The notes beneath the pieces are model-generated. The model saw only the letters and a program-made list of their open reading frames with translations, did not search any database and was not told the DNA's origin. The translations under genes and the position numbers were made by a program. A stretch of DNA of 64,000 bases, taken from positions 992,001-1,056,000 of the forward strand of contig OY978097.1 in the NCBI GenBank assembly GCA_963854735.1, given 5' to 3'. The DNA is from Marvania coccoides (lineage: Eukaryota; Chlorophyta; Trebouxiophyceae; Chlorellales; Chlorellaceae). Position 1 is the stretch's first letter. Each line of letters begins with the position of its first letter. Positions 1,620 through 43,234 of the stretch are shown here, piece by piece.

Positions 1620-2034
1620 GAGAGAGCCAGCCTGCCCCAAAAGCCCAGCCTAAAGGTTGTCACTTCTGACGGCTTGGATTGATCGTGCTGTTTTTGTCCC
1701 AAAGGGACCAAGAGTCGGAGCTTTCCACCCCTTTTATATTGCGCGGAACAAAAAATAAATTGAAATGATTAATTAAACATTACTGGCGATAGTCGCAAGA
1801 TTCCTCTACTTTCGCAGGATTCCTAGTTTTTTTCTTAAAAAAAAACAAAATGCATGCTCTGCGTGCCATGGTCGAAGTCAAAACTAGACGACTTTTTTTT
1901 GAGGACCGCTTCCTGCTCTCTATGATTTCATTCATCTTGTTGTTTCCATTTCACTTTGTATTCATTGCCTTCCCGTGTGTCAAGTCTCTTGGGCCTCTTA
2001 AGCCCTAGGGCCCTAAGCCCTAAGCCCTACTCCG
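1620..2034. promoter_or_regulatory. Divergent intergenic region between SPX and Fanzor genes with telomere-like repeats
   Basis: No gene is visible in these 415 bases. The left half carries T- and A-runs and is AT-rich. The right end, directly before the Fanzor ATG, holds a degenerate telomere-like run at 1998-2030: two perfect CCCTAAG heptamers at 2011-2024, a variant CCCTACT at 2025, and an upstream inverted partner at 2003-2013 (CCCTAGGGCCC). The region probably contains both gene promoters and, if the Fanzor gene is mobile, its left boundary. I could not find a convincing terminal inverted repeat matching the other side of the gene. Confidence 0.5.
1998..2030. repeat. Degenerate CCCTAAG (telomere-like) repeats just upstream of the Fanzor start codon
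   Basis: The stretch reads TTAAGCCCTAGGG, then CCCTAAG twice and CCCTACT. On the minus strand this is a (CTTAGGG)-type repeat, close to plant/algal telomere units (TTTAGGG) but not identical. It also contains the palindrome TAGGGCCCTA (2005-2014). It could be an interstitial telomere-like insertion scar, a telo-box promoter element or a transposon end; sequence alone does not decide. Confidence 0.55.
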
Positions 2035-3185
2035 ATGGGGGACTCTGCAGAGGCTGGGGGGAGTGGCCACCCCCCCCCCGCGCGTCTCGCTGAGGAGGTG
2101 CCACCGCCAGAGCCGCCCGATACAGAACAAGAGCACGGGCACGGGCTGACCAAGAAAGAGAAGGACACGCACTGTCTGATCACGAGACAGACCGGGCCGA
2201 GCTGCTGGAGGAATCAAGAGGTGGCGGCCGAGCTCTTGCTCGCATCAGAGGTAGTCACACAGGTGAGCCGCGGTTTTGAGTAGAACTGAACATCTTTGAT
2301 TGATCTTTCACCCACGGCCACGCGCCAACGCCCTGCACGCTGCACGCTGCACGCTGCTAACCAATTCTTCTCCCCCCTCCCCTCCCCGCAGTCCCGCATC
2401 ATCGGGTGCGAGGTGTTGGTCTTCCACGTTCTTCGCTGCATCGAAGCCAGTGCCGCTGCCACTGCCAATGGCACCACCGTGGATCCCATCGACAAGCTGG
2501 AGGTCATCAACAGCAACACCATCCGCCGCGCCTTCATGGCGCCGCTCCACGGCCACGTCAAGACAGTCCCTGGCGTGCAGGACGACCCCGCCCTCCACCA
2601 CTCATTCAAGTTGTACAAGGAAATGGACGGAGCTGCTGCCGCCATCAAGTACTGCCATGACAGGCACGAGCCCTACATGACAGAGATGATGAACATGGTG
2701 GCCAGCGATTTCCACACCAACATCAAGACCCACCTGTCTAGGAACACGTGGCGGTACACTCTGAAGTGGCTAATGCTGAAGCTCGTCAAGAAGCGCGATG
2801 CAACCCAGGACTTCTTCTACCTCACGGAAACCCATGCGCGCGCAAGGTCTGCGGCGCATGCCATGCGGAAGGCCGCCTTCTCCGGGGACGGCCGCCTGGA
2901 GGTCGTCGTGGACAACTATTCGTCGCTGGCCCACACCCCCCAGAGGGAGCGCGAATGGATGGCCACCGTGGTGAACACCGTGCACACCGAGCTCAAAGCC
3001 AGCGGCCTGCGCCTCCCCTACACCTGGCTCCACAGCGACGAGGGCAAGTTTGACGACGAGGAGGCGCTCAAGGTCCTTCCCTGGCTGGCCAAAATGGCTG
3101 AAGACATGCGCAGCGACTTGGAACAGCCGCAGCATGCGCCTGGGCCTGAGTACGAGTATGATTCTGACGAGATGGAGGAGAGCGG

Positions 3186-3265
<80 letters not shown>

Positions 3266-4755
3266 CCACCTCCCGGGCCCAGCCCCGCAAATGGCGCGTG
3301 CGTGGCCGCTGTACCGTGGCGATTTTACCCATGCCCAGCACCAAGCGCATCCACGTCCCTGTCTGGGGAGACACCATGGCGAAGGTGGCGCATGCTGCGG
3401 CGGTGAGGATGGGCGGGGACGCAGGCGAGGCCTGGCGTCACAGTGTAGCCCCACCAGGCGTGATTACCACAACCCAGGAGTTCTGGACGCCGCTGCTCGA
3501 CCTGGGGCGCGTCCACACGTCCAAGCGGCTGGAGTTTGCCCGCTTCCTCCGCACCGACGGAAAGCACGTTGCCTTGAACTTCAAGCGGGAGCTCACAGAT
3601 GTGGAGCGCATAGCAGCAGCGGCCACCCGGGCCGTGAAGGAGGCCACAAAGAAGAATCCCAAGCTGTGGACGAGACTGGGGACGGCAAGCGCGACAGGGG
3701 CGGAAGACGCCATGGCCCAGGTGTTCAGTGGGGTGGGCGAGGACGCGGTTACAGCCATGGAGGGGTTCCGCACCCACCTGATTACCACCGCCAGAAGGAT
3801 GACGGGCTTGGGGCCTAGAGGTCTGCCGCCGCCCTATCAGGACCTGGAGTGGGTACCGGTGCTGCCGCCTGGTACCCGCGTCTGCGGCCTGGACCCCGGC
3901 CGCTTAAACATCATGACGGTGGCGGATTTTGACCTGTCCGCCGCCAACAATCGCAAAGCCCCCGCCACCGCCGCCCACGGCCCACCCGCCGCTGCTTCCC
4001 CCAAATTCCCGGCGCGTTCGTGGTCCGCCGGCGAATACTACCATGGCATGGGCTTCACCTGGGGGGCCCAGCAGTGGCAGAACAGCCTGCGCTCCGACCG
4101 CGGCAGGCCAACGCGGACGTACTTCGACCGCCTGCGCACCACCCCTCGCAGGGTGGGCACCCTGGCACACTTCACAACACACTTGAACGAGGCCCTGCGC
4201 ACCCGCCCCGCGGTGCGCCCCTTCACCATGCGGCCAGCGTGGGCCAGGAACGACTGGTACGTCAAGCGGCGCTCCAACAGCTTCCTGGACCAAATGGCGA
4301 ACGACGTGATGCGGGGCGAGAAGACCAGCCGCCGGGCCCCTGGCGAGCCTGTCCCCCGGCGCATGCCCACCGTGATCGCCCACGGCGCGGCCCTCCCTGG
4401 GCAGATCATCGGCACGGCTCCCGTGGGCAACCAGCGCCTCTACCACGCCCTGGCGCGGCGCAGGGGGGCCCACGAGCCGGTGTGCTTGGTGGTCCCCATT
4501 GACGAACATTGCAGCTCCCGCGACTGCTACGCCTGTTCAACCAAAATGAAACCCACTCCCTCCCCCGAGCACCGCAAGCGACAGTGTGATCACACTGCAT
4601 GCATTCGCTTCCAGCGCAATATCGACAGGGATGTGAACGCGGCGATCAACATCATGCTGTACCTGCTGTGCGAGCTACACAACTGGCCCCGCAGCGCATT
4701 GGTACGGCCTAGGCCTCCTCCTTCGCCGGGCGGCGGCGGTGGCGGCGGCGGATGA
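2035..4755 (+). CDS. Fanzor (eukaryotic TnpB-like RNA-guided DNA nuclease)
   Basis: Model: exon 1 2035-2262 and exon 2 2392-4755, separated by a 129-nt GT-AG intron with a CTAAC branch-like motif and pyrimidine-rich 3' end; 863 residues, uninterrupted. C-terminal RuvC/zinc-finger core: RuvC-I GLDPG with Asp577; the usual RuvC-II glutamate site is replaced by VIAHGAA (about 737-743), while a glutamate sits about 40 residues on in IDEHCSS (Glu781), the rearrangement known for Fanzor nucleases; zinc finger C788-x2-C791 and C808-x4-C813; RuvC-III RDVNAAINI with Asp823. The middle holds the EFARFLRTDGKHV-type motif typical of the family. A (GCT)25 tract encodes Ala342-367 and the tail is poly-Gly. 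An N-terminal KKEKD patch could help nuclear import. Unlike every neighbour it is not a conserved housekeeping gene, so it is probably a resident of a mobile element or a domesticated copy. Activity is inferred, not shown. Confidence 0.88.
2263..2391 (+). other. Spliceosomal intron inside the Fanzor gene
   Basis: GTGAGC donor at 2263 and CCCCGCAG acceptor ending at 2391. Exon 1 supplies exactly 76 codons and exon 2 continues in the same frame into SRIIGC. The intron contains an in-frame stop shortly after the donor, so it must be removed to join the N-terminus. Its presence argues against bacterial contamination. Confidence 0.75.
3187..3264 (+). repeat. (GCT)25 trinucleotide microsatellite encoding poly-alanine in the Fanzor ORF
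   Basis: Twenty-five uninterrupted GCT units (3187-3261) plus one GCC give 26 alanines between an acidic segment (DSDEMEES) and TTSRAQPRKWRVRGR. Codon purity suggests recent slippage expansion rather than selection on the amino-acid sequence. Confidence 0.95.
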
Positions 4756-4915
4756 GAATCGACGCGTAGAAAAGTAGCTCCAACCGCCCTGCGGTTGCAC
4801 AAGATGATTTCCACTCTCTGCACTCAATCAGATGACGAATGTCGAAGCAATGATTGAATCCTTGCTCTAGTTTCCTTCTTGTGCCCTGTTCTTTCAGGTG
4901 TTTTTACCTGATTTA
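4600..4915 (+). ncRNA. Candidate Fanzor guide RNA (fRNA/omegaRNA) region at the 3' end of the gene
   Basis: In characterised Fanzor and TnpB loci the guide scaffold overlaps the 3' end of the nuclease ORF and runs into the 3' flank. Here that zone contains a perfect 7-bp hairpin right after the stop codon (CAACCGC 4781-4787, loop CCT, GCGGTTG 4791-4797) and a second 6-bp hairpin (TCAGGT 4894-4899, loop GTTTTT, ACCTGA 4906-4911). Boundaries are a guess; no transcript evidence is available. The second hairpin could equally be part of a 3' UTR. Confidence 0.35.
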
Positions 4916-12897: not shown

Positions 12898-13134
12898 AGA
12901 AAACTCTTTCGATGTAGAAAACACAGTTTTCTACATGTAGAAAACTCATTCGATGTAGAAAACACAGTTTTCTACATTTGAGAAAACTCACCCATTGTAG
13001 AAAACTCAGTTTTCTACATGTAGAAAACTCATCCATTCAGAAAACTCATCCATTCAGAAATCTCAGTTTTCTACATGTAGAAAACTCATCTATTGTAGAA
13101 AACTCACCCATTGTAGAAAACTCAGTTTTCTCAT
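12898..13134. repeat. Palindromic short-repeat array (AGAAAACTC core, 12 copies)
   Basis: Between the convergent 3' ends of ALG9 and the MFS gene, twelve copies of a core AGAAAACTC (one AGAAATCTC) follow each other every 17-25 bases. Two unit types alternate: a hairpin unit in which GTAGAAAAC is followed by its inverse GTTTTCTAC after a three-base loop (ACA or TCA), and a linear unit GTAGAAAACTCATCCATT. Where a hairpin unit meets the next unit, the perfect 20-bp palindrome GTTTTCTACATGTAGAAAAC arises (12926-12945, 13009-13028, 13066-13085). It may act as a bidirectional transcript terminator or be remnant of a foldback element. Confidence 0.92.
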
Positions 13135-13167
13135 GTTGGGTTTTTGCATTGGCGGCAGACAATTATA

Positions 13168-41826: not shown

Positions 41827-43234
41827 GATTTAACAATCGTAGTATCATCTGAATTTGAATTTTATGACAGTGTCACCAGCTTTACTTCCCTCTTTTTCTC
41901 CTTTCTTTTTCTTATTATTTTGAATGCGTCCCAGCAGCTAGGGGGCAAAAGTGTGTGAGCGTGCTCTACTCCAGTTTTTCAATTATCTTTATTGGATGTT
42001 AACCTCATTTCTCATTACTACTTTGTTTTTAACATCGACCCCCCGAAATGCTTCATCCAACGACAACAATCGTGTGAAATCGAAAGCGCGTTCCTGCGTG
42101 CCCAATTGGGCATTTGTAACGAGAGAGAAAACAAACTAACTCACGTATCCATCCTCTGTCAATCCACCGCCTTTTTACATCGGCAGCATTTTTTTTCACT
42201 TGCTTCGAAGAGCATTCTAAGACTGCATCCAAGGTTTCTTTCGCTTGGGAGAAGCATGCTGCATGTTTAAACAGGTTCCCTGCATCAAGAAAGGATGAAC
42301 ACGAGTCAGAAAAGGCCGAGGATCTGAAGCACTCTACAATTGTTGCTTTAATGAGAAAGAGCCCATACGGTTGGCTTCAGTCGAAGAAATTCAACCAATA
42401 TTATCAGTTTCTTCAGACTTGTCGTCAGAAGCGCGGATAATTTTATCATCATTGCCAATGGGGCTGGAAAGCGGGTCAACAATAAAGTAATAAAGTAGCA
42501 TGTTCAATGTATGGTTACCTTGACAAATGACAACGATACCTGCAGCCCACAATAAGCCGAGTATTTGGCGGTGCTCTGGGGAGAGTCTTCAGTGGAGGGA
42601 GCCAGCCTGAGTCTGAGAGCTGGGTCACTCACTGTCTCGACATTGCTAGCAGCGCTGCACAAACCTATCGGATGCAGATTGAACATCCCTGGTTCTCTAT
42701 GTGTTTAGCGACACGTTCGAGATGAACATTGCACGGGCAAGACGATAGTTTGCTGGCAGCATCAAAACTCTCATCAAGAAAATCCTGGCTGCGACACATG
42801 CATGCAGCCCAGCGGGCGCTGATCCTCCCTGAGAGACTCACCTGGTGAATGTCCCGATCGAAAAAAAGAGATAAAGAAGAGCTAACGAGCCCCCGTGAAA
42901 GGAAAAAAAAAAGTGGCATCCCAACAACACAGAACACGGTTTCAGGTGGAGGCAGTGAACTGCTAGTGTTCTTCTTTACGTCTCATTTTATTTATTTAAA
43001 GTCAATGCCAGGCATGGCCGCTTCTTTTTTCTGAGAACCGCGTTTTTCCTTCGAGGTTTGAAGTAACTTCAAACCATTTTTTCCCCTCTCTCCCCCCGAA
43101 TACACGTGTTTATTATTATTATTATTTCATCAATGCAACGCAAAAATTAAATGGATGCCCCTCGGCAGTAGCTCCGCATCTTCATTTTATTTTTATTTCA
43201 AAAATTGTTGTTTGATCGTTCCCCATTTCTCGCA
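41827..43234. other. 1.4-kb stretch without a confident gene
   Basis: The largest gap in the window. The plus-strand flanks (41850-42500, 42860-43230) are AT-rich and look non-coding, with a (ATT)n run at 43110-43130. The centre (about 42500-42850) is less AT-rich and, read on the minus strand, contains open segments with coding-like composition and GTGAGT/CAG splice-like signals; see the separate entry. Confidence 0.5.
42400..42860 (-). other. Possible small spliced gene or structured non-coding RNA (unresolved)
   Basis: Minus-strand open segments at about 42840-42690 and 42686-42510 have balanced base composition unlike the surrounding AT-rich spacer and are bordered by GTGAGTCTC, GTGAGTGACC, TCTCCCCAG and CTTTCCAG splice-like signals. 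Several joinings are possible, for example a short frame ending in a Lys/Asp/Glu-rich tail (DDKSEETDNIG), but none matches a family I know. It may be a lineage-specific short protein, a decayed gene or an RNA gene. Low confidence in any coding model. Confidence 0.25.

Follow-up and report, generated by a model that had tools for sequence, protein, structure and literature searches.

The window that we analyzed is a 64,000-nucleotide stretch of the genome of the green alga Marvania coccoides (C1:992001–1056000, in an assembly of 22.46 Mb and 15 contigs), and it contains an intron-bearing gene of the TnpB/Fanzor kind; features lie on the forward strand unless stated otherwise. Re-derived to the base from splice consensus and reading frame, the gene model starts with the ATG at 2035 and ends with the stop codon at 4755. 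Exon 1 (2035–2262) holds 76 codons and exon 2 (2392–4755) a further 787 plus the stop. The 129-bp intron predicted between them (2263–2391, GTGAG...CCCGCAG) has its donor GTGAG at 2263 and an acceptor ending at 2391, splice sites that we infer from consensus and frame. The spliced coding sequence, 2592 nt with the stop, translates into 863 residues with no internal stop; read unspliced, the frame hits stops within the intron, and an in-frame TAA lies upstream of the ATG at 2014. The rebuilt model reproduces what the sequence-only reading had described, namely the exons, the intron, the length of 863 residues, the acidic residues D577, E781 and D823, and a frame free of stops and frameshifts. 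Fanzor genes reportedly contain introns.

Two stretches of simple repeat accompany the gene. A tandem TGC repeat (3186–3263) encodes a run of 26 alanines. Directly before the start codon, at 1999–2029, stand about four telomere-like TAAGCCC units, inside the element described below; the telomere repeat of the host is TTTAGGG.

Two near-identical copies of a 3.0-kb block

The gene is part of a block, at 1871–4880, that recurs on another chromosome, at C4:1842501–1845553. Similarity between the C1 and C4 sequences ends abruptly on both sides of the block, and the flanks are single-copy, as found in the genome search for 70 bp on each side at C1 and as DNA for 1662 bp on the left and 1201 bp on the right at C4. 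Where the sequence-only reading knew of one gene, the genome thus contains a second full-length copy; searches with the protein, with both end sequences and for the TNB domain family found these two copies and no third, a count that is a lower bound.

The copies differ by five substitutions (1901, 2149, 2681, 2695 and 4871) and by indels of a 7-bp intron unit, of 51 bp of alanine codons and of 1 bp after the stop. The intron of copy 2 accordingly measures 122 bp, one unit less than the 129 bp of copy 1, and its alanine run is 43 residues long, the extra 51 bp being in frame. Its reading frame is likewise open, with 880 residues, and the catalytic and zinc-binding residues are the same in both copies. 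The alanine tract differs by 17 residues between the copies, with the remainder of the protein barely altered. Each of the three substitutions in coding sequence is an amino-acid change, a pattern with no hint of selection on function; as about a quarter of random changes would be silent, though, three are too few for selection to be judged.

Because both copies retain the intron, the copying occurred at the DNA level, and the near-identity of the copies, the shared intron and the sharp block ends together lead us to a recently duplicated mobile element. The block is a mobile element of about 3.0 kb, copied recently as DNA, with one recognised gene. The sequence-only reading had taken the intron as the mark of a settled eukaryotic copy, and this part of it is unsupported. 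What "settled" implies is a domesticated Fanzor, a host gene retained at a single site to serve the cell. The intron, the intact frame and the conserved neighbors, FKBP and TSR1 among them, would suit such a gene, but the second copy has identical boundaries at an unrelated place on another chromosome, the copies are so nearly identical that one must be recent, and two protein searches turned up no relative that could attest to long conservation. We regard domestication as very improbable.

Family assignment of the predicted protein

In the translated gene model, an aspartate stands at residues 577 and 823 and a glutamate at residue 781. The first aspartate belongs to a DPG motif at RuvC-I (D577-P578-G579, 3892–3900), located by motif search and by alignment with viral TnpBs. 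The RuvC-II glutamate, E781 (4504–4506), occupies the alternative position, six residues ahead of the first zinc-finger cysteine (E781-x6-C788). The zinc finger, C788-x2-C791...C808-x4-C813 (4525–4602), was located by regular expression and by Pfam, and the RuvC-III aspartate, D823 (4630–4632), lies in RDVNAA. A single regular expression starting at residue 781 captures the whole series E-x6-C-x2-C...C-x4-C...RDVNAA. The protein also fits the pattern D-X(125,275)-[TS][TS]-X-X-C4 finger-X(5,50)-RD, with D577, a spacing of 206 residues, S784-S785, C788–C813 and the RD at 822–823.

Two of these features separate Fanzor from TnpB. In the available text of PMC10711439, Fanzors are told apart by a DPG motif at RuvC-I together with a RuvC-II glutamate that precedes the zinc finger by six residues, a pair said to occur in <1% of TnpB-family proteins; both are present here, as D577-P578-G579 and E781-x6-C788. 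A TDG motif, which the portion of the literature at hand describes in the WED domain of Fanzor1, was found by motif search at residues 464–466 (3553–3561), 113 residues before D577; it is the only TDG in the 863 residues, and such a single occurrence is not rare.

For comparison we used 109 viral ORFs, a non-random set gathered by a DRDVNAAINI-type pattern that matched at least 120 loci; among 121 loci, 108 had an RDVNAA-type ORF of at least 100 residues, and L017, which is not a TnpB, was added. The alternative glutamate occurs in 4 of the 109, and DPG in one (L055), but outside RuvC-I; the two never occur together in this set, and no member of it has the Cx4C half-finger. From 104 ORFs found, 83 with a clear RuvC-I and then, after removal of near-duplicates, 60 were kept for a TnpB profile. 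D577 aligns with the RuvC-I aspartate of these 60 proteins, a set picked beforehand for its RuvC-I motif, and at the position aligned with E781, 41/60 have R and 3/60 have E. A search of the viral contigs for the spacing Cx4C-x8-RDVNAA returned four stretches, one of them a short chance frame and the others three near-identical TnpBs with neither DPG nor the alternative glutamate, and for this reason the Cx4C spacing alone is no mark of a Fanzor.

Profile scores point to the same family. Pfam PF07282, the Cas12f1-like TNB domain, matches with E 5e-6 and, at 27 bits, exceeds its cut-off of 26.3; both genomic copies lie above that threshold. NCBIfam gives weak matches only, far under the cut-offs, with TnpB and Cas12f2 ranked first. 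Against the profile of RuvC regions from 60 viral TnpBs, the protein reaches 27.2 bits (E 1.4e-7), while the top score among 770 decoys, made up of 500 shuffles and 270 ORFs of the window, is 6.7 bits. The useful scores, from Pfam and NCBIfam, thus name the TnpB/Cas12f group, and another family is not preferred. Together with the rebuilt gene and the two fingerprints, the TNB match supports the earlier description of a chromosomal algal Fanzor gene that bears an intron, keeps its triad intact and is free of disabling changes, and the further suggestion of a potentially functional nuclease is compatible with the sequence seen.

Within the family, assignment to Fanzor1 over Fanzor2 fits both the length of the protein and the missing match to a serine recombinase: PF00239 has no match in the genome (intron-split or very divergent genes could escape such a search), and as a control the same search was positive in 10 of 14 genomes. 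Fanzor1 genes are described, in the part of the literature at hand, as lying outside IS607 elements, that is, without a serine recombinase. Fanzor2 and TnpB of the IS607 type share with our protein the RuvC domain, the zinc finger and the RD ending; they differ in the serine recombinase, which is unmatched in this genome, and in length, the present protein having roughly double the residues of the TnpBs in the PDB. On these grounds, rather than by phylogeny, we class the protein as a putative Fanzor1.

Close relatives did not emerge. Exon 2 as a whole, compared with 5.8 billion proteins (public eukaryote sources included), gave 8000 scored candidates and none at E ≤ 0.001, in a search that needed shared 5-residue words and was probably swamped by low-complexity candidates. 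Residues 540–840, compared with the same number of proteins under the same need for shared 5-residue words, gave 3869 candidates and none at E ≤ 1. No exact words of the protein occur in the viral contigs, and a WNRDVNAA-type pattern found one unrelated protein there, L017. In a PDB sequence search the top places went not to Fanzors but to ribosomal L40 zinc fingers (E 0.0014, and 0.25 in a second search); we regard these matches as a resemblance between zinc ribbons, and in plain sequence comparison the result speaks against a Fanzor match. When three viral TnpBs were added to a profile, TnpB-type proteins came first in the PDB, the mimivirus Fanzor2 (9b0l) scored 4.6e-17 and the Guillardia theta Fanzor1 0.089, a ranking driven mostly by the added TnpBs. 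The green algae with recorded Fanzors include Chlorella vulgaris NJ-7, according to the available part of PMC3627910, and a description of the present element was not found among the matches listed for open-licence literature on Fanzor or TnpB in algae, Chlorella or Trebouxiophyceae. The element is a divergent addition to the known Fanzor family in an unusually clean, recent two-copy state, and no new kind of system; its protein may found the new algal subfamily that the sequence-only reading had in mind.

That the TNB domain is common to TnpB and Cas12f raises the question of a prokaryotic TnpB, brought in by contamination or by recent bacterial transfer. We find this hardly credible. The 3.4-Mb contig begins with plant-type telomere repeats, and the three contig ends read (the start of C1 and both ends of C4) show TTTAGGG/CCCTAAA. 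The adjoining gene is green algal: the TSR1 neighbor has a best match at 68% in the protein search, with Chlorella vulgaris at 57% and Parachlorella kessleri at 54%. The gene has an intron, combines DPG with the alternative glutamate and encodes 863 residues as against about 410 for TnpBs in the PDB, and neither of the two protein searches found a close bacterial relative.

Element ends and the candidate guide RNA

Outside the gene, the element comprises only 164 bp on the 5′ side and 125 bp on the 3′ side, which leaves too little room for a transposase, and none of its own was found within the element outside the Fanzor gene. No inverted repeat was found at the very ends, and within 2 bp of them neither copy shows a target duplication of ≥3 bp. 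We also considered a 5-bp repeat, GTGCC, as a target duplication; it occurs at copy 1 only and at loose offsets, and we take it as chance. A subterminal inverted repeat of 8 bp is formed by AAACTAGA (1881–1888), 10 bp inside the left end, and TCTAGTTT (4866–4873), 7 bp inside the right end, where copy 2 differs at 4871; it was noticed post hoc, and 39 of 5000 random pairs equal it. A 7-mer, GTCGAAG, that occurs at the left end and again close to the right one was rejected as a signal, since 227 of 2000 random pairs reach 7. With this 7-mer chance-like and with no end repeats or target duplication, we make no assignment to Helitron2.

These ends bear on a different origin, in which a 3-kb block was copied once by break repair, as an ectopic templated insertion whose ends are accidental and whose true ends lie elsewhere or are lost. 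Such an event would account for just two copies having been found and for the want of both a terminal inverted repeat and a target duplication. A chance copy would be cut anywhere, however, and this block consists of just the complete gene with 164 bp before and 125 bp after it; its right end follows soon after the stop codon, as in Fanzor1 elements (Spu-1), and the 8-bp repeat, for all that it was seen post hoc, is matched by few random pairs. We judge a break-repair copy unlikely and read 1871–4880 as the element itself.

A mover could be encoded elsewhere in the genome. One Helitron protein locus was found genome-wide (C3:2198330–2198964). The element ends match the 50 kb around this ORF no better than shuffles do, and an 87% match over 31 bp between the element and the ORF (E 2.4e-4) was dropped as GGC-rich low-complexity DNA. 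Near the Helitron (C3:2190001–2200000) lie long inverted repeats, of 294 nt at 97% and 204 nt at 100%, and about 11 kb from it an ORF that by eye resembles a reverse transcriptase. To the left of copy 2, at a distance of 1.7 kb, a 445-codon frame (C4:1839504–1840838; L004:1505–2839) resembles by eye an EnSpm/Plavaka transposase, and C3 holds two distant relatives of it; as neither the frame nor a relative matches a transposase family in Pfam, the label is unproven.

In SpuFz1, as given in the available text of PMC10432273, the guide-RNA scaffold consists of about 75 nt at the right end of the element and the guide of the next 14–15 nt outside. By analogy, the 125 nt at the 3′ end of the present element (4756–4880) could serve as a guide-RNA scaffold, and the 15 nt of flanking host DNA at 4881–4895 would be the putative guide of copy 1. 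The candidate scaffold contains a 7-bp hairpin, CAACCGCCCTGCGGTTG (4781–4797), with z −3.5 as DNA, and copy 2 is short of one C in it. The fold of the whole 125 nt is not above shuffles (z 0.31); folded as DNA, the last 45 nt reach z −1.61 and the left 60 nt z 0.14. Rfam gave nothing at its cut-offs over the candidate scaffold, and a genome search with the right end found no gene-less element retaining it.

These results also suit an element on its way out, whose frame is intact through recency only and whose guide RNA or nuclease is already dead. Consistent with this are the presence of two copies only, the one base missing from the candidate RNA hairpin in copy 2, the weak RNA fold, the protein-changing nature of all three coding substitutions and the unstable length of the poly-alanine tract. 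Neither copy, on the other side, has a stop or frameshift, and catalytic and zinc-binding residues are preserved in both. Decay of this kind is a real, if lesser, possibility.

Proposed mode of spread and comparison with known Fanzor systems

We think it quite likely that the locus is a mobile element of the Fanzor1 kind, about 3.0 kb long and with one recognised gene, which was recently copied in a green alga and works by an RNA-guided mechanism. The gene product would be an RNA-guided DNA endonuclease, and its guide RNA would be transcribed from the right end of the element, its last ~15 nt supplied by the adjoining DNA. The complex would cut DNA that matches the guide, for example the same chromosomal site minus the element, and repair would copy the element into the cut site, so that it is kept or spreads. 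The first insertion at a site would be made by a transposase of unspecified kind acting in trans. Counting against this explanation are the fold of the right end, the protein-changing coding substitutions (too few, at three, to judge selection), the scant 164 + 125 bp in which a transposase would have no room, and the failure to find a gene-less element with that end, a target duplication or a protein relative. A variant, to which we give a slim chance, is a homing-like, RNA-guided selfish gene of a eukaryote: a minimal Fanzor1 element, lacking recognisable transposon ends, whose spread would depend chiefly on RNA-guided cutting and repair copying; as the guide-matched cut and repair would by themselves copy the element in, a transposase of its own would be unnecessary.

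Known systems share parts of the arrangement that we favor, a Fanzor1 mobile element. As described in the accessible text of PMC3627910 (Bao and Jurka 2013), the Fanzor1 element CMe-1A, found in the red alga Cyanidioschyzon merolae, offers a precedent and resembles the Marvania element in its length of about 3 kb, its lack of terminal inverted repeats, its algal host, a target duplication that is not determined and an unclassified transposon kind; it differs in having about 150 copies, some 80% identical to their consensus, whereas two near-identical copies are found here, a likeness drawn by description only. In Auxenochlorella, which like Marvania belongs to the Trebouxiophyceae, a class already known to harbor Fanzors, the Fanzor element is, by the available part of PMC12636532, the most abundant repeat of the genome, in contrast to the two copies found here, and this likeness too is by description only. 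The same source gives the Auxenochlorella telomere repeat as TTAGGG, compared with TTTAGGG in Marvania. SpuFz1 of Spizellomyces punctatus (PDB 8gkh) is, like the present protein, a Fanzor1 in a small element (Spu-1) with a RuvC domain and a C4 zinc finger; the passages available of PMC10432273 also give Spu-1 a right-end guide RNA, 30-nt inverted repeats and 134 gene-less elements, the latter two of which were not found here. GtFz1 of Guillardia theta is another algal Fanzor1 at a locus seemingly without inverted repeats or a transposase, going by the same passages, but N replaces its third catalytic D (available portions of PMC11423790 and PMC10432273), which in our protein is preserved as D823.

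What benefit a Fanzor brings to the elements that carry it is described as an open question in the available text of PMC10432273 (Nature 2023). A two-copy, nearly undiverged element with defined ends and intact genes, in a small genome with telomere repeats at the three contig ends read, offers a clean system in which to study this role. Two candidate guides can be read from the two flanks, and strains that lack the one or the other copy would show how the element moves. As no relative was found in two protein searches, the protein may add to the diversity of RNA-guided nucleases in nature; the concept of what a Fanzor is stays unchanged by this element.

Elsewhere in the window, a tandem array at 12898–13136 has units of 41 and 57 bp composed of AGAAAACTC plus its reverse complement, so that hairpins could form in every unit, and a C/D snoRNA, snoU36a, lies on the reverse strand at 42372–42457, scoring 68 bits against an Rfam cut-off of 45.
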